A stretch of 64,000 nucleotides of DNA from assembly GCA_021769865.1 (NCBI GenBank), contig JAETSB010000003.1, positions 62,001-126,000 of the forward strand. Direction: 5' to 3'. Below the pieces are notes generated by a model. It saw only the letters and a program-made list of their open reading frames with translations. It did no database searches and was not told the origin of the DNA. Shown here in pieces: positions 4,103 through 47,282 of the stretch (its first letter is position 1; each line of letters opens with the position of its first letter). The position numbers and the translations under genes are program-made. The stretch is from Oscillospiraceae bacterium. Its GTDB lineage: Bacteria > Bacillota > Clostridia > Oscillospirales > Oscillospiraceae.

Positions 4103-4167
4103 CGGTTTTTGTCAGAAGTGCTATGATGTTCAGCTGCTTTTTCGTCAAAATGCTCAGCTCAGAATGT

Positions 4168-4197
4168 TGACAAAACGGGAAAAAGATGTTACAATTT
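4168..4197 (+). promoter_or_regulatory. sigma70-type promoter
   Basis: TTGACA-N17-TACAAT upstream of the 4227 ORF. Confidence 0.6.
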
Positions 4198-4226
4198 GGT
4201 TACAAAATTTCTGAGGGAGGTTTTTT

Positions 4227-4535
4227 ATGGCTGGAAGCAAGAACAGCAAAACCGAGGGCCTCGTGTATAAGGGCCATCCGCTCCGCCGGGCAGGGAATTT
4301 GATCTACTACGGCACGATGGCTGAAAAATATATCATCATGATGCAGGTGCTGGAGACGAAGAAGGAGCAGGACCTGGACCTGGCCTCCAAGGTCTCCATC
4401 CAGCTCCAGCTTACGGACCCGGATTTGAAATCCCGGGACCGCGTTGTCAAGAAGAGCGAGAAGGACAGCCTTTACGCGGCGATGGACATCGCCACCGTCT
4501 GGCTGAACCGGGCCCTGGCGGGCAAGGAGAAATAA
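4227..4535 (+). CDS. conserved hypothetical protein (102 aa)
   Basis: ORF with SD gagggagg; no recognised family. Confidence 0.75.
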   Translation: MAGSKNSKTEGLVYKGHPLRRAGNLIYYGTMAEKYIIMMQVLETKKEQDLDLASKVSIQLQLTDPDLKSRDRVVKKSEKDSLYAAMDIATVWLNRALAGKEK

Positions 4536-4592
4536 AGCCGGCCGTTTCCCCCAACCGTTTTACAGAAGATACGAGAAAGGAAGCTACCACTT

Positions 4593-5504
4593 ATGAATCG
4601 ACTTGCAGGAAACGCCGCCAAGGTTCTGGCGCTCACCCTGATGACCATGCTGTTCCTGACCGTTACGGCCTTCGCCGCCGACGGCGACCCCCTGGTGGTA
4701 GGCATCGGCAAGACCACCGGCTCCTCCCTCCGCCTCCGGTCGGACCCCTCTTTGGACGCCTCCGTCATCACCATGCTGGACAAGGACTGGATCATCGCCG
4801 TGCTGGGCGAGGAGGACGGCTGGTACCACGTGGCCCACAACGGCAAGATCGGCTACGTCTCCGCCGACTTCTTCACCAAGGACGAGGCCACCGAGTTCGA
4901 GTACTACGGCCGGATCAATGCCCGGGGCGTCAACGTCCGGGCCGAGGGAAACCTGGACGCCGAGATTGTCAACAACCTGGGCCTGAACAGCGGCGTCACC
5001 GTTATCGGGATTGAGAACGGATGGTATAAGATCACCGGACAATACGGCGACGGCTATGTCCGCAGCGACTACATAAGCCTGACCAACGAGACTCCCCTGA
5101 CCCCCGGCGCCAGCGTGGGCGACAGCAATATCGTGGACTTCGCCCGTCAGTACCTGGGTACCCGGTACGCTTACGGCGGCGCGGCCCCCGGCGGCTTCGA
5201 CTGCTCCGGCTTCACCATGTACGTGTACAAGCAGTTCGGCGTGTCCCTGCCCCACACGGCCACCGGCCAGTGGCAGAGTGGCTTGGGCACCCGGGTCTAC
5301 AGCCTGGGCGAGCTCCAGCCCGGCGACCTGGTGTTCTTCAACGACCCCAGCCGGAACGCCGGCAAGGCGTGCTCCCACGCGGGCATCTACGTGGGCGGCG
5401 GCCAGATGATTCACTCCTCCTCCTCCCGGAGCGGCGGTGTGATCTACTCCGACCTGACCGACGGCTACTACAATACATACTTTGTGGGCGGCATCCATAT
5501 CTGA
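4593..5504 (+). CDS. secreted SH3-domain / NlpC-P60 (C40) cell-wall hydrolase
   Basis: Signal peptide, two SH3-like domains, YAYGGAAPGGFDCSGFTMYVYKQFGVSLPHTA catalytic motif with DCSG and later H. Confidence 0.92.
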   Translation: MNRLAGNAAKVLALTLMTMLFLTVTAFAADGDPLVVGIGKTTGSSLRLRSDPSLDASVITMLDKDWIIAVLGEEDGWYHVAHNGKIGYVSADFFTKDEATEFEYYGRINARGVNVRAEGNLDAEIVNNLGLNSGVTVIGIENGWYKITGQYGDGYVRSDYISLTNETPLTPGASVGDSNIVDFARQYLGTRYAYGGAAPGGFDCSGFTMYVYKQFGVSLPHTATGQWQSGLGTRVYSLGELQPGDLVFFNDPSRNAGKACSHAGIYVGGGQMIHSSSSRSGGVIYSDLTDGYYNTYFVGGIHI

Positions 5505-5523
5505 TGTTCTTCTGAATATGAGC

Positions 5524-5556
5524 AAGAGGCACGGCAAATGCCGTGCCTCTTTTTGT
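5524..5556 (+). terminator. Rho-independent terminator
   Basis: aagaggcacggc-aaat-gccgtgcctcttttt. Confidence 0.9.
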
Positions 5557-5562
5557 GTCTTC

Positions 5563-5648
5563 GTTGCCGTCGCTTTAGCCAGGTTTACCACCAGGCTGTC
5601 AGAGCGTGTTAAAGTTCCTTTGGTTACTTTCCTTTCAAGGAAAGTAAC
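5563..5648. repeat. dispersed intergenic repeat, copy 1 (ends in hairpin)
   Basis: gttgccgtcgctttagccaggttt...agagcgtgttaaag...gttactttcctttcaaggaaagtaac; related to 27841-27929. Confidence 0.75.
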
Positions 5649-5656
5649 GCCGTGCC

Positions 5657-5770
5657 TCAGCGGACAGCCACGGCCTTGCTCAGGTCGATGGGAGCCTCGA
5701 AGAGGCCGTATTCCTCGTTCCAGTTCTCGCCGCAGCAACCTAGAGGGTATCTTGAAATTCGAACAATTCA
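5657..5770 (-). pseudogene. orphan C-terminal coding fragment ...CGENWNEEYGLFEAPIDLSKAVAVR*
   Basis: In-frame tail of at least 25 plausible codons ending in TGA at 5659-5657, with no upstream gene body. Confidence 0.4.
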
Positions 5771-5870
5771 AACGAGGATGGCCTCACCGGTCAGCACCAG
5801 GTCAGCGGCAGTGGAAAGAGCAGCTGGTCCATTCGACAATCACCAAAACCCCCGCCTGCAAGGGCGACCA

Positions 5871-6485
5871 TCACCCCTCCGCCTCCGGCGGATTCTCCAA
5901 ATCCAGCACATACCGCTCATAAGCGTTAATAATCGTCGTCTCCCCCCGCCGGAGCACCCGGGGGATCTGAAACCCATAATTCACATGGACGTGTCCATGA
6001 ATCAGATACCTCGGCTGATACTTGTCCACAAGCGCCAGCAGGCTCTCAAACCCCCGGTGGGCATAGTCCTCCCCGTCCCCATAGCCCAGCATGGGGGAGT
6101 GCGTCAGCACAATATCCACGCCTCCCGCCCGCCAGAGGCGGTACCGGAGCCGCCGAATTCGGCGGGCCATCTGGGCCTCCGTGTACTGGTGGGGCCCGCC
6201 GCTGTACTCAATGCTTCCCCCCAGGCCCAGGATGCGGAGCCCCTTTATCGTCACCAGCTGGTCCTCCACGCAGTCGCAGCCCTCCGGCGGATGCTGGTCA
6301 TAGGTTTTATCATGATTCCCATGAACATACAGCAGGGGCTTCCCCGTCATGGTCACCAGAAAGGTGAGATACTTGGAGCTCAAATCCCCACAGGAGAGGA
6401 TCATGTCGATCCCGTCCAGGCGGCCGGGCCTGTAATAGTCCCACAGGTATTCGCTCTCTTTATCGGACAGTAACAGCAGCTTCAC
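5871..6485 (-). CDS. metallophosphoesterase (calcineurin-like)
   Basis: GTG start; LSCGDLSSKY, YVHGNHDKTYD, LTHSPMLG, LIHGHVHVNYG motifs. Confidence 0.88.
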   Translation of the reverse strand: MKLLLLSDKESEYLWDYYRPGRLDGIDMILSCGDLSSKYLTFLVTMTGKPLLYVHGNHDKTYDQHPPEGCDCVEDQLVTIKGLRILGLGGSIEYSGGPHQYTEAQMARRIRRLRYRLWRAGGVDIVLTHSPMLGYGDGEDYAHRGFESLLALVDKYQPRYLIHGHVHVNYGFQIPRVLRRGETTIINAYERYVLDLENPPEAEG

Positions 6486-8413
6486 AGAATGGGGTCCTCC
6501 TTCTCCGGGGGGATGGCGTCCCGATAGACGCCCTGGAGCCGGGCGAGGGAACGGGCCATGGGCAGCAGGTCCTCATATTTGGGAATGCTTCCATGGACGC
6601 AGTCCAAAAGGGCGTCCATGTGCAGGATCTTTTCCGGCGTGGCCCCGGGGAAGGGCTGGATGGACCCGTCAATAATTCCCTTGCGGAGAATGGCCGCCAG
6701 CTGGCGGACGCCGGCGGGGAGCTCGTCGCTCAGCAGAATGTCCACCGCCCGGATGTTCATGCCCCACCAGTAGTTGACCGCCTGGCCCTCCGGCGCGGCC
6801 AGGGACTCCCAGCCGCCGCTCAGAATGCCGCGGACCAGATTCGTGTAGACGTTGCCCCAGTGCCAGTAGGGGGAGGCCAGGGAACGAAACTTCCCGTTTT
6901 CAATGCGGCACAGGCCCCAGGGCTCCCGGACGCGGTCCGGCGTGGGGATGTCCCGGTTGGAGATCAGAGACACGCCCTCCCAGGCCAGGGCGTCCATGGC
7001 GTTCTCCTCCACACAGGACCAGCGGAGGGTAATCTCCGCCCGGGGATTCGTCAGCTGGGCTCCCAGGGCGAAGGCGTTGATACTGGCGGGAACGCCGAAA
7101 ATGGGGTTGCTGGCCACGTAACCGATGCGGCCGCTGCGGCTCAGGGCCCCGGCGATGGCGCCGGCAATATATTTTGCCTCGTAAATGCGGCTGTAATACG
7201 TGCGGACCCCGGCGTAGGGCATGGAGACCGAGCAGTTCAGAATGCGGACCTCCGGGTGCTTCGCCGCCGTCTTCCGGCAGGCCCCGATCAGCGGCGGCGT
7301 GATGGCAAAGAGGAGCTGGGCCCCGTGCTCGATGGCCTCCTCCATAGCGGCCTCCGCCTCCTCCCCGGGCCGGACGCCGTAAAAGGTTTCGGTCTCCACC
7401 CGGTCCTCCAAGACCGTCTCCAGATACTCCCGGCCCAGGTCGTGGGCCCGAGCCCAGTCGCTCTGGTCCGGCAGCTGGTCGCTGATGAAGGCCACGTGCA
7501 AACGGCTGAGCTGCTTGGGCTTGAAGATGCGGCCCAGAAGGTTCTCCTCCTTGGCCTCCGGCGTGTCCGTGCGGACGGCGATGGGCTCCGACAGGGCCTT
7601 CACGTCTGCCCAGACGGCCTTGACGCTTTTCAAAAGCTCCGCCGAGGGCAGGGAGATCAGGTCGTCAAAGCTGTAGACCTTCAGCCACACCAGCATGGCG
7701 TCCGCCGTGGTGATGGGCAGCTCTCCGCCGCCCAGCTTCAAAAAGGGCTCCTGGAAGTAGGTGTAGCCCGCGGCGAAGCGGCGGCGCTCGTCCTCCGTCC
7801 AGACGTGGTCCGGCTCATAGCCCAGGGCCTTCTGGAGCTTGACGAAGCTCCCCGCCCGGGTGAAGCGGGTCCGGTACAGCCGCGTCTTGGGGAAGGACTG
7901 CATAAAGTCGTAGTAGGCCGCCACCGCCGGGTCCTCCGTCCAGACGGGGATCATACGGATGACGTAGGCGGGAATGGTGGGCGCGTCGTAGCTCCGCAGG
8001 ACGCTGACCCGCTTGTTCCCCTCCTGAACGTAAAAGCGGCCGAAATACTCGTAGCACCGGATGGGGTCCCGGATGCCCTCGTCCCCCAGGTGGGCCTCGC
8101 AGAGGCTGATCCACTTTCCGGCGAACTCCGTGTCCGGGTCCAGCAGGGGCAGGAAGTCCGCCGAGAAGGCGGAGCGGCGGCCCGCCGTCTTGGTGCCCAC
8201 GATCTGGTCGATGGGAATCTCCATGACCCCCAGCTCCGTCTGACCCGCCACCATGGAGTCGCTGATGATTTCGTCCAACACCTGGGGATAGGGGTAGCGG
8301 CCCCGGACCAGGGCCTCCTTATAGGATTTTCGGCCCTGCTTCAAGGCGCTGGCGTACTGTGAAATTGCCTCCTGACGGCTCATGCGGACATCCTCCCTTG
8401 CGCTTCGATCCAT
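6482..8413 (-). CDS. ParB-like domain / BMP (PnrA/Med) ligand-binding domain fusion protein, no signal peptide
   Basis: N-terminal IPIDQIVGTKTAGR...FYVQEGNKRVSVLRSYDAPTIPAYVIR (ParB/sulfiredoxin-like); C-terminal HVAFISDQLPDQSDWARAHDLGREYLE...YIAGAIAGALSRSGRIGYVASNPIFGVPASINAFALGAQLTNP (BMP family). Confidence 0.8.
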   Translation of the reverse strand: MDRSAREDVRMSRQEAISQYASALKQGRKSYKEALVRGRYPYPQVLDEIISDSMVAGQTELGVMEIPIDQIVGTKTAGRRSAFSADFLPLLDPDTEFAGKWISLCEAHLGDEGIRDPIRCYEYFGRFYVQEGNKRVSVLRSYDAPTIPAYVIRMIPVWTEDPAVAAYYDFMQSFPKTRLYRTRFTRAGSFVKLQKALGYEPDHVWTEDERRRFAAGYTYFQEPFLKLGGGELPITTADAMLVWLKVYSFDDLISLPSAELLKSVKAVWADVKALSEPIAVRTDTPEAKEENLLGRIFKPKQLSRLHVAFISDQLPDQSDWARAHDLGREYLETVLEDRVETETFYGVRPGEEAEAAMEEAIEHGAQLLFAITPPLIGACRKTAAKHPEVRILNCSVSMPYAGVRTYYSRIYEAKYIAGAIAGALSRSGRIGYVASNPIFGVPASINAFALGAQLTNPRAEITLRWSCVEENAMDALAWEGVSLISNRDIPTPDRVREPWGLCRIENGKFRSLASPYWHWGNVYTNLVRGILSGGWESLAAPEGQAVNYWWGMNIRAVDILLSDELPAGVRQLAAILRKGIIDGSIQPFPGATPEKILHMDALLDCVHGSIPKYEDLLPMARSLARLQGVYRDAIPPEKEDPIL

Positions 8414-37581: not shown

Positions 37582-38349
37582 ATGGACGACCGCAGAACCC
37601 CCGCCCCCGAGGCCGACGGGATCATCGAGGGCCGGAACGCCGTCATCGAGGCCCTGCGGGCCGGGACGGCCATTGATAAAATCTACCTGCAAAAGGGCGA
37701 GACGGACAAGACCCTGGGCCATATCGCCTCCAGGGCCCGGGCCGCCGGGGCGGTGGTGGTGGAGGCGGATAAGCGGAAGCTGGATGCCATGAGCCGCACC
37801 CACGCCCACCAGGGCGTCATTGCCCTCAGCGCCGTCCGGGAGTACGCCACGGTGGAGGATATCCTCCGCTCGGCGGCGGACAAGGGGGAGCCTCCCCTGC
37901 TGGTCATTTGCGACGAGCTCTCGGACCCCCACAATCTGGGGGCCGTCATCCGCACGGCGGAGTGCGCCGGGGCCCACGGCGTCGTCATCCCCAAGCGCCG
38001 CAGCGCCGGGCTGACGGCGGTGGTGGCCAAGACCTCGGCCGGGGCCGTGGCCCACGTGCCTGTTGCCCGGGTGCCCAACCTCCCGGCCCTGCTGGACGAT
38101 TTGAAAAAGCAGGGCGTCTGGGTCTTCGGCACGGCGGCGGACGGGACCACGGCCCTCTACGACGCGGACCTCAAGGGCCCCGCCGCCATCGTCATCGGCA
38201 GCGAGGGCAGCGGCATGGGCCGGTTGGTTGCCGAGCGCTGCGACTTCCTCGTCAGCATCCCCATGCGGGGGAAGCTTAACTCCCTGAACGCCTCCGCCGC
38301 CGCCGCGATTCTGCTCTATGAGGCCGTGCGGCAGCGGTCGCTCTCCTGA
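37582..38349 (+). CDS. rlmB: 23S rRNA (guanosine-2'-O)-methyltransferase RlmB-like (SpoU/TrmH family)
   Basis: IIEGRNAVIEAL, DPHNLGAVIRTAECAGAHGVVIPKRRSAGLT, IVIGSEGSGMGRLV, SLNASAAAAILLYEAVRQ. Confidence 0.93.
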   Translation: MDDRRTPAPEADGIIEGRNAVIEALRAGTAIDKIYLQKGETDKTLGHIASRARAAGAVVVEADKRKLDAMSRTHAHQGVIALSAVREYATVEDILRSAADKGEPPLLVICDELSDPHNLGAVIRTAECAGAHGVVIPKRRSAGLTAVVAKTSAGAVAHVPVARVPNLPALLDDLKKQGVWVFGTAADGTTALYDADLKGPAAIVIGSEGSGMGRLVAERCDFLVSIPMRGKLNSLNASAAAAILLYEAVRQRSLS

Positions 38350-38397
38350 ACATTCACGGCGTCCATTCTTTAACTTTGTACCGCGGAGGGAATTTTG

Positions 38398-38964
38398 ATG
38401 GTGACGGTTCGCGATGCCACGGTGGAAGACGCCGGGCGTATCCTGGAAATCTACGATTACTATGTAAAAAACACCGCGATTACGTTTGAATACGAAACGC
38501 CCACCCTTGACGAGTTCAGGGGGCGGATGGAAAACACCATGCGGGCGTACCCGTATCTGGTCGTTTTGCAGGACGGCCGGATCGAGGGCTACGCTTACGC
38601 GGGCGCCTTTGTGGGCAGGGCCGCCTATGACTGGTCCTGCGAAACCACCATTTACCTTGACCGTAACGCCCGGAAATGCGGAATGGGCCGGATCATCTAT
38701 GAGGCGCTGGAAACAGCCCTGCGCGATATGGGGATTCTCAACCTGTACGCGTGCATCGGCTATCCGGAGCGTGAGGACGAGTACCTGACGGCAAACAGCG
38801 CCAATTTTCACGCGCATCTGGGCTATGTGAAGGTGGGCGAGTTTCACAGATGCGGGTATAAATTCGGCCGCTGGTACAACATGATCTGGATGGAGAAGGC
38901 CATCGGAGAACATCAAGCGAAACAATCCCCCATTACCCGCTATCCGGAATTGAGGAACGCCTGA
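38398..38964 (+). CDS. GNAT N-acetyltransferase, phosphinothricin acetyltransferase-like
   Basis: VTVRDATVEDAGRILEIYDYYVKNTAITFEYETPT..., GMGRIIYEALETALRDMGILNLYACIGYP. Confidence 0.9.
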   Translation: MVTVRDATVEDAGRILEIYDYYVKNTAITFEYETPTLDEFRGRMENTMRAYPYLVVLQDGRIEGYAYAGAFVGRAAYDWSCETTIYLDRNARKCGMGRIIYEALETALRDMGILNLYACIGYPEREDEYLTANSANFHAHLGYVKVGEFHRCGYKFGRWYNMIWMEKAIGEHQAKQSPITRYPELRNA

Positions 38965-39016: not shown

Positions 39017-41152
39017 ATGACCCCGAAGGACAACAACATCAACGCCCCGGAGGAGGACTATTCTCTGGAGGAAATCCTGGCGGAGTACGGCGGCAGCCTG
39101 GAGCATCACCTGCTTCGGGAGGCCGAAGCCCCCGCGGAGCAAGAGCCGCCCGCCGCCTCGGCGGAGCCCGCTCCAACCCAGGAGCCGGAAGCGCCGCCCG
39201 TTCCCGAGCCCCCGCCGGAGGAGGAAGCGCCGCCGGCCCCGGAAGCCTCGCCGCCTCCGGCTCCAGCCCAAGAACCCCCTCCTACTCCGGACCCCCTTCA
39301 GGAGGCCGAGCGGGCGGCGGAGGCGGGCGTGGCCCGGCTGAACATCCCCCATCCCCGCCCCATCTCTCTGGAGGACGTGGTGGGCAGCACCGTGGACGCG
39401 GTGATGGAGGAGGCCAGGGAGCCCATCCTGCCCCCGAAACGGGGCCTGTTCTCCCGGAAGCCCCTGGAGGAGACGGAGTCCCTCCCCCCGCCGCCGGAAC
39501 CCGAGCCGGAATCCGACCCGGAGCCCATCGGCCCGGAACCCACCCTCTGGGAGGCGGCCCACGACGCCCGGCAGCTCTACATCCGCCGGAAACACACGGT
39601 GGTCCTGCCTCTGTTTACGGCCCTGCCCCCCACGCTGTTCCTGCTTCTGGAGCGGTATCAGGTGAAGGTGCCCTACTGGTCCGGGGACCGGGAGGTCCAG
39701 TGCGTGGTTTTGCTTGCCTGCCTGGGACTGACGGCGCTGCTGTGCCGCCATGTGTTCCTCAAGGGCTTCGGCATGCTGCTGCGCCGCCGCTGCGTGGCGG
39801 AACTGCTGGTGTCCCTCTCCGTTCTGGTCTCCGCCGCGGACTGTGCCGCCCGGCTTCTGGGCGGAGAGCCCGGCGAGGTCATGCCCTACGCCTCCGTCAG
39901 CTGTCTGGCCCTGGTCTTCGCCCAGTGGGGCGTCCGCCGGGAGAGCAAGGGGAACTACGACATGCTCCGGGCCGCGTCCCTGGACGAGGACCCGCCCTAT
40001 CTCGTCACCAACACCCCCCAGGGGGCCTGCAAGCAGCGGGGCTCCGTCCCCGGCTTCTTCACCACCGCCGCCCGCAGCGACGTCGCCGCCCTCTGGCAGA
40101 CGGCGCTGCTGCCCGCCTTCCTGGCGGCGGCCCTGGTCTTCGCGGCCTTAAGCTCCGCGGGGCAGGAGCGAAGCGGCGACTTCCTGCTGAACCTCTCCGC
40201 CATCCTTCCAGCGGCGGCCACCTTCTCCCTGCCCCTGTGCTGGGCCCTGCCCTGGTCCAAGCTGTCGGAGCACCTGCAGCGGACCGGCTGCGCCGTGGCG
40301 GGCTGGTCCGGGGCCCAGAAGATCAGCGCCCAGCGGCGGATGATCGTCACCGACGGGGACCTCTTTCCCCCGGGCACCGTCCAGCTCAACGGGCGGAAGC
40401 TCTACGCCGAGACCCAGGAGCAGGCCGTCTCCCTGGCGGCCTCCATGGCCCGGGCCGCCGGGTCCGGGCTGGAGCGGCTCTTCAACAACCTGGTCCGCAG
40501 CGAGGGGGGCCGCTATGAGAAGGTGGACGATTTCAGTTTCTATGAGGAGGGCGGCTGGTCCGGGACCATCAAGGGCGAGTCCGTGCTGATGGGCGGCGCC
40601 TCCTTCATGCGGAAGATGAACGTGCGGCTGCCGGCGGACGTAAACCTGCGCACCGGCGTGTTCCTGGCGGTGGACAAGGAGCTGACGGCGGCCTTCGCCG
40701 TGAAGTACAATCCCTCCGAGAACGTGGACTTCGCCATGAAGATGATGCAGCGCAGCCGTATCCAGCCCATTCTGGCCTCCCGGGACCCCAACATCACCCC
40801 CTCCCTCATCAAGCGGAAGTTCAACCGGGGCGTGCATATGGAATACCCCGGCCTCTCGGAGCGGATCGCCCTCAGCGAGGCGGAGAAGGACCGGGACCTA
40901 CCCCGGGCTCTGCTGTTCCGGGAGGGGCTGCTGCCCTACGCGGAGACGGTGGCGGGGAGCCTCCGGCTCTGCAAGGCCGTCCGCCGGGCGGCGGCCATCT
41001 CCCTGCTGGGAAGCTGGGCGGGGACCCTGCTGACCTTCTACCTCACCAGCCTGGGGGCCTACGAGCTGCTGCACCCCCTGGCGCTGGAGGTCTTCCTGCT
41101 GCTGTGGACCCTGCCGGTGCTGCTCATGGCGGACTGGACGGGACGTTATTAA
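39017..41152 (+). CDS. large membrane protein with Pro/Glu-rich N-terminus and degenerate P-type-ATPase-like architecture
   Basis: ~180-aa Pro/Glu-rich acidic N-terminus; TM pairs; LPAAATFSLPLCWALPWSKLSEHLQRTGCAVAGWSGAQKISAQRRMIVTDGDLFPPGTVQLNG aligns in order with P-type ATPase M4/phosphorylation region but lacks DKTGT. Confidence 0.6.
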   Translation: MTPKDNNINAPEEDYSLEEILAEYGGSLEHHLLREAEAPAEQEPPAASAEPAPTQEPEAPPVPEPPPEEEAPPAPEASPPPAPAQEPPPTPDPLQEAERAAEAGVARLNIPHPRPISLEDVVGSTVDAVMEEAREPILPPKRGLFSRKPLEETESLPPPPEPEPESDPEPIGPEPTLWEAAHDARQLYIRRKHTVVLPLFTALPPTLFLLLERYQVKVPYWSGDREVQCVVLLACLGLTALLCRHVFLKGFGMLLRRRCVAELLVSLSVLVSAADCAARLLGGEPGEVMPYASVSCLALVFAQWGVRRESKGNYDMLRAASLDEDPPYLVTNTPQGACKQRGSVPGFFTTAARSDVAALWQTALLPAFLAAALVFAALSSAGQERSGDFLLNLSAILPAAATFSLPLCWALPWSKLSEHLQRTGCAVAGWSGAQKISAQRRMIVTDGDLFPPGTVQLNGRKLYAETQEQAVSLAASMARAAGSGLERLFNNLVRSEGGRYEKVDDFSFYEEGGWSGTIKGESVLMGGASFMRKMNVRLPADVNLRTGVFLAVDKELTAAFAVKYNPSENVDFAMKMMQRSRIQPILASRDPNITPSLIKRKFNRGVHMEYPGLSERIALSEAEKDRDLPRALLFREGLLPYAETVAGSLRLCKAVRRAAAISLLGSWAGTLLTFYLTSLGAYELLHPLALEVFLLLWTLPVLLMADWTGRY

Positions 41153-42435: not shown

Positions 42436-44319
42436 ATGGAATGGACAATGACGGCCAACGCCCCCGGCCAGGTATGCCTGATGCAGGGCAACGAGGCCAT
42501 TGTGCGGGGCGCGGTGGAGGCCGGAATCAACTTCGCCGCCTCCTATCCCGGCTCTCCCTCCTCCCAGGTGCTGGGAATGCTGGGCAAGATTGCCCGGGAG
42601 CGGGGCTTTTACGCGGAGTGGTCCACCAACGAGGTCTGCGCCCTGCAGGCCTGCACCGGCGCGTCCCTGGCCAATGGCCGGGCCCTGTGCGTGGTGAAGC
42701 AGAACGGCCTTTTGTGCACGGCGGACGCGCTCCACTGCGCCGCCCAGGCCGGCGTGAAGGGGGGCCTTGTGATCGTCTCCAGCGACGACCCCAGCGCCCA
42801 CTCCTCCACCAATGAGTTCGACTCCCGCTGGCAGGCCATGTCGGCGGGCATCCCCCTGCTGGAGCCCACCACCATGCAGGAGGCCAAGGACATGATCCCC
42901 TACGCCTTCGAGCTCAGCGAAAAGGTGGGACAGCTGGTGCTGATCCGGGTGACCACCCGGGTCTGCCACGGCCGGGGCAACGTGACCCTGGGCCCCCTGC
43001 CGGAGAAGCCCCGGGCCCTAGAGCGGGTGAGGGAGTGGGACCGGATGGTCTGCGTCTCCTACATGCACGGCCCCGCTCTCCAAAAGCTGGAGTCCCTCCG
43101 CGAGTGCTTTGAGACCAGCCCCTGCAACCACTATGAGGGCCCCGAGGCCCCCAAGAAGCTCATCATCGCCGGGGGCACCGGCCGGCTCTACGGCCAGGAG
43201 GCCCTCCGCCGCCTGGGCGTGGACAAAGAGACCGGCTTTCTCTCCCTGGGCACCCTCTGGCCCTTGCCGGAGAGCTACATACTCAAACGCCTCCGCTCCG
43301 CGGAGGAGGTCCTGATCCTGGAGGAGGTGGACCCCTTCCTGGAGCGGGCCGTCCAGGCCCTGGCGGGCCGGGAGGGCCTGCGGGTCAAGTTCCTGGGCCG
43401 GGACAACGCCCTGCCTGCCGTTGGGGAGCTGGACCCGGACGTGGTCACGTCCGCCATTTGCGCGCTCACCGGCGCGGCCCTGCCGGAGAAGAAGCCCACC
43501 GGCGAGCTGGAGCTCCCCGTCCGGGAGATGAGCTTCTGCGCGGGCTGCCCCCACCGGGCGACGTTCTACCTCCTCAAGCGGGCCATGCGCCAGGAGAAGC
43601 ACCCCGGCGTCGTCGTGGGCGACATCGGCTGCTACTTCATGGCGGGCCAGTCTGCCGGGCAGTACGCCTGGCAGACCTGCAACTGCATGGGCTCCGGCGT
43701 GAACGTGGCCGAGGGCCTGGGCCAGCTGACCAACTACGGCCTGGACCAGAAGGTGGTCACCATGTGCGGCGACTCCACCTTCTTCCACACCATTCTTCCC
43801 GGATTGGTGAACGCCACCTATCATAACGCCAACATGCTCCTCATCGTTCTGGACAACTCCGCCACGGCCATGACGGGCTTCCAGCCCCATCCGGGCACGG
43901 GCCTCACCGCCATGGGGGACCACGTGAAGCCCATGGATATCCCCAAGATCCTGGACGCCGTGGGCTGTAAAGTAGAAGTGGCGGACCCCTTCGACGTGGT
44001 GGAGGCGGAGAAAACCCTCCGCTGGATGCTGGACCAGCCGGGGATGAACGTCCTCATCATGCGTCAGCCCTGCGCCACGCTGATGACCAAGGAGCGCAGC
44101 AAGAAGCCCGTCCGGGTCTACGTGGACCAGGACGTGTGCATCGGGGACGGCTGCGGCTGCGACAAGTACTGCTCCCGGGTCTGGGGCTGCCCCGGAAACA
44201 CCTGGGACTTCAAGAAGAACAAGGCGCTCATCGACCCCGTCACCTGCGTGGGCTGCGGCGTGTGCGCCAAGCTGTGCCCCTCCGGGGCCATTAAGGTGGA
44301 AGGAGGTGAGGAGGCGTGA
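42436..44319 (+). CDS. iorA: indolepyruvate ferredoxin oxidoreductase, alpha subunit
   Basis: GNEAIVRGAVEAGINFAASYPGSPSSQV, GDIGCYFMAGQ, GDSTFFHT, C-terminal ferredoxin CVGCGVCAKLCPSGAI. Confidence 0.95.
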   Translation: MEWTMTANAPGQVCLMQGNEAIVRGAVEAGINFAASYPGSPSSQVLGMLGKIARERGFYAEWSTNEVCALQACTGASLANGRALCVVKQNGLLCTADALHCAAQAGVKGGLVIVSSDDPSAHSSTNEFDSRWQAMSAGIPLLEPTTMQEAKDMIPYAFELSEKVGQLVLIRVTTRVCHGRGNVTLGPLPEKPRALERVREWDRMVCVSYMHGPALQKLESLRECFETSPCNHYEGPEAPKKLIIAGGTGRLYGQEALRRLGVDKETGFLSLGTLWPLPESYILKRLRSAEEVLILEEVDPFLERAVQALAGREGLRVKFLGRDNALPAVGELDPDVVTSAICALTGAALPEKKPTGELELPVREMSFCAGCPHRATFYLLKRAMRQEKHPGVVVGDIGCYFMAGQSAGQYAWQTCNCMGSGVNVAEGLGQLTNYGLDQKVVTMCGDSTFFHTILPGLVNATYHNANMLLIVLDNSATAMTGFQPHPGTGLTAMGDHVKPMDIPKILDAVGCKVEVADPFDVVEAEKTLRWMLDQPGMNVLIMRQPCATLMTKERSKKPVRVYVDQDVCIGDGCGCDKYCSRVWGCPGNTWDFKKNKALIDPVTCVGCGVCAKLCPSGAIKVEGGEEA

Positions 44320-44939
44320 AGCTGAAATACGATCCCCTGAACATCGTAGTCTGCGGCATCGGCGGGCAGGGCAACGTGCTGGCCGCCGAGACCCTGGGCA
44401 CCGCCATGTGCGACCGGGGCTGCCGGGTGGCCGTGGGAGAGACCTACGGCGCCAGCCAGCGGGGCGGCTCCGTCATGAGCCACGTCCGGGTCTCTGAAAC
44501 CTGGGACCCCAGCGTTCTGATTCCCGCCGGAGAGGCCCATATCATCATCGGCTTCGAGCCTCTGGAGACCCTCCGCATCGCCCGGAAGTATGCCGGGGCG
44601 GACACGGTCACCGTCTACGACCCCCGGCCCGTCTATCCCCTGGGCGTCCTCCAGGGCGTCCAGACCTACCCGCCCCTGGAGGAGCTCCAGGTGGAGATTG
44701 CGGACCTTTCCACCATGGCCCTGGCCATTCCGGCGGCGGATATCGCCATGGAGGCCGGGGACTCCCGGGCCGCCAACATCGCCCTGCTGGGGGCGTTCAG
44801 CACCCTGTCCGCCGCGCCGCTGAACGGCGAGGACCTGGAGAAAATCCTGGCCCAGCGCTTCCAGGGCAAGGTGCTGGAGCTGAACCGGCGGGCCTTCGCC
44901 ATGGGCCGGGAGGCCGCTAAGAAAGGGGGCGCGGTGTGA
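44316..44939 (+). CDS. iorB: indolepyruvate oxidoreductase, beta subunit
   Basis: NIVVCGIGGQGNVLAAETLGTAM, GETYGASQRGGSVMSHVR. Confidence 0.94.
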   Translation: MKLKYDPLNIVVCGIGGQGNVLAAETLGTAMCDRGCRVAVGETYGASQRGGSVMSHVRVSETWDPSVLIPAGEAHIIIGFEPLETLRIARKYAGADTVTVYDPRPVYPLGVLQGVQTYPPLEELQVEIADLSTMALAIPAADIAMEAGDSRAANIALLGAFSTLSAAPLNGEDLEKILAQRFQGKVLELNRRAFAMGREAAKKGGAV

Positions 44940-46446: not shown

Positions 46447-46500
46447 GGTCACCAAAAAGAGAGAGACAGGCCAAAGCCTGTCTCTCTCTTTTTGGTGACC
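46447..46500. repeat. 54-bp perfect palindrome (25-bp arms, 4-nt loop) overlapping tRNA-Lys 3' end; contains a terminator
   Basis: ggtcaccaaaaagagagagacaggc-caaa-gcctgtctctctctttttggtgacc. Confidence 0.95.
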
Positions 46501-46568
46501 CAGCGGGGATTCGAACCCCGGACCCACTGCTTAAAAGGCAGTTGCTCTGCCGACTGAGCTACTGGATC
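46496..46568 (-). tRNA. tRNA-Lys (TTT)
   Basis: GATCCAGTAGCTCAG...CTTTTAA...GGTTCGAATCC...CTGGGTCA, CCA encoded. Confidence 0.95.
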
Positions 46569-46625
46569 ATCATCGTCGGAACAAACTGCACTCCATGAAT
46601 CCCGCCCTGCGGGCAGGCTTCACTC

Positions 46626-46801
46626 CGTTCCGTTTGTTCTTCCTCTCCCCACAAAATCTGCGGATTTTGTGGGGGGTACGCGGGGAAACGCTATGCACGG
46701 CTTCGCTGCGCTGCCTCCGTTCCAACTCCCGCCCTTCGGGGCCCCCGCCGCAAACCAGCGCAGCGTTTGCGGTGGGGAGAGGAGGGGCAAAGGAGCGGAA
46801 C
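46626..46801. repeat. nested hairpins/inverted repeat between tRNA-Lys and tRNA-Gln
   Basis: outer arms gttccgtttgttcttcctctcccc / ggggagaggaggggcaaaggagcggaac; inner acaaaatctgcggattttgt and ccgcaaaccagcgcagcgtttgcgg. Confidence 0.7.
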
Positions 46802-46871
46802 GCAGTCCTCGCCAGAAGCCGGAGGCTGGCGGTGGGGACGGAGTGGAGCGGATTTCGCCCCGACGACTTGG

Positions 46872-46943
46872 CAGGGACGGCTGGACTCGAACCAGCGCAT
46901 GAGGGAGTCAAAGTCCCTTGCCTTACCGCTTGGCTACGTCCCC
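46872..46943 (-). tRNA. tRNA-Gln (TTG)
   Basis: GGGGACGTAGCCAAGCGGTAAGGCAAGGGACTTTGACTCCCTCATGCGCTGGTTCGAGTCCAGCCGTCCCTG. Confidence 0.95.
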
Positions 46944-46998
46944 GTGCCGGAAATAAGCGCGGGGACCGGGGAAAAGCCCCGATCCCCTGCTCCTGTGG

Positions 46999-47073
<75 letters not shown>

Positions 47074-47124
47074 ACATATCAACTGTCTGGAAGCCGCTGG
47101 ACGAACGCCCTGGGAAGAGCTTGG

Positions 47125-47198
47125 CACGCCAGAAGGGACTCGAACCCCTGGCCTACTGCTTAGAAGGCAGTTGCTCTATCCGGCTGAGCTACTGGCGC
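47125..47198 (-). tRNA. tRNA-Arg (TCT)
   Basis: GCGCCAGTAGCTCAGCCGGATAGAGCAACTGCCTTCTAAGCAGTAGGCC... Confidence 0.95.
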
Positions 47199-47210
47199 AA
47201 ATTTGGATGG

Positions 47211-47282
47211 AGCAGGTGACGAGAATCGAACTCGCATCCCCAGCTTGGAAGGCTGGTGCCCTGACCATTGTGCTACACCTGC
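47211..47282 (-). tRNA. tRNA-Gly (TCC)
   Basis: GCAGGTGTAGCACAATGGTCAGGGCACCAGCCTTCCAAGCTGG...CACCTGCT, CCA encoded. Confidence 0.95.

Follow-up and report, generated by a model that had tools for sequence, protein, structure and literature searches.

The gene and its product

The gene occupies positions 39,017 to 41,152 of the plus strand in the window, that is, in the whole stretch of 64,000 nucleotides of Oscillospiraceae DNA that was analysed, and its open reading frame is intact. The gene, the parts of its product and its two upstream neighbours are arranged as follows.

37,582-38,349, plus strand: rlmB, encoding a SpoU-type 23S rRNA methyltransferase, the constant upstream neighbour (Pfam)
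38,395-38,964, plus strand: gene of a GNAT acetyltransferase, between rlmB and the pseudo-ATPase gene and outside the constant pair (Pfam)
39,017-41,152, plus strand: the whole gene of the predicted pseudo-P1B-ATPase, 711 amino acids; ATG at 39,017, the stop codon ends at 41,152
39,017-39,565, plus strand: N-terminal tail, residues 1-183, acidic, rich in Pro and Glu and mostly disordered (composition; low AlphaFold2 confidence)
39,062-39,091, plus strand: tail motif 1, SLEEILAEYG, residues 16-25, a short predicted helix (conserved in the genus and in distant families; strict-pattern search)
39,362-39,460, plus strand: tail motif 2, ISLEDVVGSTVDAVMEE...RGLFSRK, residues 116-148 (conserved at the level of the genus)
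39,602-39,976, plus strand: MA, MB, M1 and M2, the first four transmembrane helices, residues 196-320 (AlphaFold2; LpCopA alignment)
39,977-40,081, plus strand: remnant of the A domain, residues 321-355, a hairpin without TGE (LpCopA profile alignment; AlphaFold2)
40,082-40,285, plus strand: M3 and the kinked M4, residues 356-423, without the CPC metal site (alignment; AlphaFold2)
40,349-40,375, plus strand: former phosphorylation loop, residues 445-453, TDGDLFPPG replacing DKTGTLTxG (alignment)
40,397-40,711, plus strand: N domain, about residues 461-565, with G513 and G526 kept and the His of SEHP lost (alignment)
40,712-40,927, plus strand: second part of the P domain, about residues 566-637, with SRDPN replacing TGDN and the GDGxND segment deleted (alignment)
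40,928-41,143, plus strand: M5 and M6, residues 638-709, with the conserved W697 (alignment; AlphaFold2)

Searched as a single sequence, the 711-residue protein gave no match in Pfam, which has no family for it, and phmmer matched no chain of the PDB. NCBIfam returned only P1B models below threshold (E = 0.033, residues 461-598). The homology described below is visible only with a profile of the family.

Descent from P1B-type ATPases

The family profile, A1, comprises 29 diverse members. It matched the copper ATPase LpCopA (PDB 3rfu) with an E-value of 4.7e-28 and other CopA, HMA4, CopB and ATP7B chains at 1e-10 or better; the match to Na,K-ATPase among the PDB chains was weaker. The alignment with LpCopA consists of three blocks, namely the M1/M2 region, the stretch from M3 to TGD, and M5/M6. 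Every segment quoted in the original prediction as evidence for the order of a P1B-type ATPase is present, and in that same order. MIVTDGDLFPPGTVQL (residues 442-457) lies at the phosphorylation loop and starts at 40,340, as had been placed, and GTIKGESVLMGGASFMRK, VFLAVDKELTAAFAV and ILASRDPN align to the N domain and the TGD strand of LpCopA.

The AlphaFold2 model of the core (residues 183-711, 53 sequences) has a pLDDT of 90.5 and a pTM of 0.86, and a Foldseek search of the PDB with this model put P1B ATPases at the top (4bbj, E = 1.4e-16; ATP7B, E = 3.7e-15) with KdpB next. The global TM-scores to the P1B structures are about 0.55 and the rmsd is large, as expected with missing or rotated domains. 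In the full-length model, eight long helices occupy the P1B positions, and the A domain is replaced by a hairpin. By the AlphaFold2 and Foldseek results, the eight helices and the N domain of the P1B fold are present and the P domain is partial. The structural match on which the original prediction had staked itself was found both by profile and by fold, and the respective E-values, 4.7e-28 and 1.4e-16, rule out a chance resemblance to P-type ATPases. The protein is a true homologue of the P1B-type (copper) ATPases, an identity that is solid and rather surprising.

With the P1B-1 copper ATPases (LpCopA, 3rfu and 4bbj; ATP7B) the family shares the eight-helix topology, the fold of the N domain, the aspartate of TGD and the order of the segments. 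In contrast to them it has no DKTGT, GDGxND, CPC or SEHP histidine, its A domain is a hairpin, and a long disordered tail stands in place of the metal-binding domains.

Catalytic parts lost and retained

Residues were counted in 83 aligned members sampled across Oscillospirales. Neither DKTGT nor GDGxN occurs in any of them (0/83 each); the absence of the latter, which had been noted for this copy, is due to a deletion that leaves 10 family profile positions against 42 LpCopA residues in the GDGxND segment. The A-domain region is represented by 45 profile positions against 119 residues of LpCopA, and TGE is missing together with most of this domain in both the LpCopA alignment and the AlphaFold2 model. 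The column of the SEHP histidine contains no His (0/83). The proline of M4 is kept in 60/83 members, but the flanking cysteines are unconserved and the CPx/SPC metal motif is missing. Two true P-type ATPases encoded in the same genome retain TGE, CPC, DKTGT, SxHP, TGD and GDGxND. The loss of the parts for phosphorylation, dephosphorylation and copper binding is well supported by these alignments.

Two of the replacements described in the original prediction are less complete than was thought. The catalytic loop indeed nowhere reads DKTGT, but an aspartate is found at the catalytic position or one residue from it in 73 of the 83 members (D at 445 or 446; none at either in the other 10). Similarly, ILASRDPN is present at the site of TGD, but the aspartate of that motif is retained (D590, 81/83). 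D446 itself occurs in 61/83, with the reservation that the alignment of the loop is ambiguous by one residue and that D446 may or may not correspond to the catalytic Asp; in some members, for example that at locus L038 (VDAKDLFPKG), an Asp falls exactly at the catalytic position. The loop also keeps D or E at 448 (74/83), F450 (72/83) and P451 (69/83). As judged from the alignment, what has been lost is the DKTGT context and not every acidic residue. In many members the loop begins with D-x-D/E, which is reminiscent of the DxD motif of HAD phosphatases, but the active-site residues on the GDGxND side of the HAD fold are deleted in the family, and the likeness is local and may be accidental.

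The conservation that survives is mostly in the cytosolic P/N region: G513, the second Gly of GxG, is kept in 80/83 members, G526, the Gly of GN, in all 83, Y564 in 78 and N592 in 66. The first Gly of GxG is not conserved, and with it and the SEHP histidine half of the nucleotide contacts of the ATP7B type are gone. Binding of a nucleotide by this remnant is conceivable, though we consider it somewhat improbable. In the membrane part, strong conservation is limited to Pro, Gly and Trp, including W697 of M6 (76/83).

An analogue is eukaryotic ERMA/TMEM94, which is likened to the family here through literature descriptions and not as a relative. It has a P-type architecture with a non-canonical phosphorylation loop and neither TGES nor GDGxND (PMC13322241, PMC12134183), but it keeps an A-like domain and DKQGI, and the loss of the A domain goes further in the present family. 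One group reported that ERMA, with DKQGI and GSSANL and without TGES, nevertheless takes up Mg2+ and that the D427N substitution abolishes this uptake (PMC13322241); another group, on the basis of TMEM94 structures, disputes both a P-type cycle and its classification as a P-type ATPase (PMC12134183). Because the activity of ERMA/TMEM94 is disputed, the loss of motifs alone does not settle activity in the family either. By analogy with the claim for ERMA/TMEM94, the protein could be an active, divergent transporter in which D446 or the D-x-D pair carries out phosphotransfer, and the frequency of acidic residues at 446 and 448 would fit such a mechanism. However, little of the A domain remains, the GDGxND segment has been deleted, the metal ligands of M4 are gone, the strongly conserved membrane residues are of three kinds only, and 10 of the 83 members have no Asp at 445 or 446. 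Active transport is, on balance, quite improbable. That the protein is derived from P1B ATPases and is not a canonical pump is very likely from its sequence, and the description "catalytically dead" is a strong inference from that sequence. The profile and fold matches and the family-wide absence of DKTGT support the pseudo-ATPase assignment as originally proposed.

The N-terminal tail

A Pro/Glu-rich region of about 180 residues had been predicted to precede the membrane part. The tail comprises about 183 residues before the first helix, of which 43% are Pro or Glu, and contains 42 acidic and 10 basic residues. The full-length model is mostly of low confidence here and places short helices at the conserved segments; because of this low confidence, docking cannot be read from the model. 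Two segments show strong conservation within the genus: SLEEILAEYG, close to the N-terminus, and ISLEDVVGSTVDAVMEE...RGLFSR, which precedes the membrane part. Motif 1 recurs in distant families as FSLEDILAEF, FSIDDILAEFG, ISIDDILSEFG and FTLESILAEFG. A loose pattern of this motif was found within the first 100 residues of 34/83 members against 0.6 in shuffled sequences, a count that is probably a lower bound, since reading-frame starts were assigned mechanically and the pattern misses some variants. The strict pattern gave one match per genome in six genomes, always in the family gene and in no other protein, while the loose pattern gave scattered matches. The stretch ahead of the core ranges in length from almost nothing to several hundred residues (median 273), and the tail is therefore not universal; it is nearly absent in five sampled reading frames, and motif 1 was undetected in many members. 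Recruitment of a partner through the tail may not be general.

Distribution and selection

A six-frame search found the family in 56 of 60 relatives and in 23 of 24 genera. Across Oscillospirales, A1 matched 142 of 147 genomes with E-values below 1e-69, and nearly all of these matches spanned the full core. In the other five genomes the best E-values, 1e-19 to 1e-30, are at the level of true P-type ATPases; these genomes may represent losses, strong divergence or assembly gaps. Both sampled genomes of one genus (G092 and G150, genus g49) contain no member at the usual score, and the gene may truly have been lost there.

Among 231 genomes that belong to the same class but not to the order, no score exceeded 123 bits, and the matches listed for them cover only about profile positions 180-479 and lie in reading frames as long as those of true P1B pumps. 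No match reached 1e-40 in 198 genomes drawn from the phylum outside the order. The two draws overlap by four genomes, so that about 425 distinct outside genomes contained no member. The lowest score of a member within the order is 233 bits, which leaves a clear gap to the outsiders. In a scan of contigs, for which an alignment of 10 rows was used as the 29-row version was too divergent, the named records were mostly Oscillibacter, Dysosmobacter and Oscillospiraceae; in a plasmid collection the best match was in Vescimonas fastidiosa, where it is annotated as "hypothetical protein".

Compared with eight relatives, the core has a dN/dS of 0.16-0.37, and the gene is under purifying selection. Orthologues with an intact DKTGT, which would have marked this copy as a decayed gene, were looked for and none was found among the 83 members. 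The loss of catalytic motifs is what one would see in a decaying pseudogene or a local artefact, but this explanation is refuted by the intact frame, the presence throughout the order, the constant synteny, the low dN/dS and the invariant G526, and hardly any weight is left to it. An assembly artefact was likewise considered and rejected. The gene is a core, syntenic and order-specific gene without annotation.

Gene neighbourhood

In 80 of the 81 loci with enough upstream DNA, the 3 kb upstream of the family gene contain an rlmB-type SpoU methyltransferase gene in the same orientation, usually no more than 50 bases away. The sole exception (locus L034 of genome G037) has an Obg GTPase gene directly upstream, the two genes being at 4137-5501 and 5523-7784. 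The downstream genes vary. A gene of an EF-G-like GTPase, either the housekeeping EF-G or a paralogue, immediately follows the family gene in 14 of 79 loci spread over the order (for example L035:4083-6167, L036:3859-6021 and L201:36-2114), and the other variable neighbours include Era, Lon, SpoIID and radical SAM genes. A second constant neighbour besides rlmB was not found. Co-expression with rlmB is probable.

The translation-linked neighbours are suggestive. The protein might link the membrane to translation or ribosome maturation by acting with RlmB or with the products of neighbouring translation genes, in keeping with the close and nearly invariant rlmB, the recurrent EF-G-like gene and the single loci with Era or Obg. 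A shared operon, however, may give only the expression of a housekeeping transcript, the remaining neighbours vary, and in the window the GNAT gene separates rlmB from the pseudo-ATPase gene; such a link is distinctly unlikely.

Another explanation is that the protein is a regulatory or chaperone-like subunit, the helices of which partner a true transporter or another membrane enzyme without any sensing of a ligand. The retention of all eight helices and of W697 although the metal ligands were lost is in keeping with this. The cytosolic part, however, carries the strongest conservation, and there is no constant transporter gene nearby, rlmB alone being constant. We regard a subunit of this kind as unlikely.

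Proposed function

The loss of the pump parts, together with near-universal retention in the order beside rlmB, makes a conserved job other than pumping probable. The best explanation, to which we assign a probability of about 0.6, is an order-wide P1B-derived family without the canonical pump cycle that serves as a membrane scaffold or sensor. The role of sensor or scaffold had already been suggested in the original prediction, and it remains an inference. That prediction did not include that the A domain is lost, that the gene is conserved throughout the order and syntenic with rlmB, or that the tail carries conserved motifs.

As a scaffold or sensor, probably co-expressed with rlmB, the protein would be a membrane module that transports nothing. 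Its remnant pocket (G513, G526, D590 and N592) and the conserved DxDLFP loop might hold or sense a ligand, such as a nucleotide or Mg2+, and the FSLEEILAEYG motif of the acidic tail might capture a cytosolic partner. A scaffold or sensor that recruits its partner through the tail falls somewhat short of an even chance. The fullest version, a membrane-anchored, ligand-responsive scaffold whose disordered, motif-bearing tail ties a cytosolic process to the membrane, possibly ribosome maturation or translation through the link with rlmB, is put forward tentatively and is doubtful as a whole.

Pseudoenzymes are well known among kinases and phosphatases. In the literature searched, in which coverage of subscription journals was thin, nothing on point was found on bacterial pseudo-P-type ATPases or on this family, and no bacterial P-type ATPase with lost catalytic parts fixed across a whole order. 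If the assignment is correct, current annotation overlooks a conserved membrane protein in a dominant order of gut bacteria. The family could then serve as an order marker and as a natural experiment on what the P-type membrane core can do when phosphorylation is absent, and it would be an obvious target for deletion and pull-down studies.

Other features of the window

Five tRNA genes (Lys, Gln, His, Arg and Gly) are clustered on the minus strand at 46,493-47,282. Two adjacent genes at 42,436-44,939 resemble, from a reading of the translations by eye, those of the indolepyruvate ferredoxin oxidoreductase subunits IorA and IorB.
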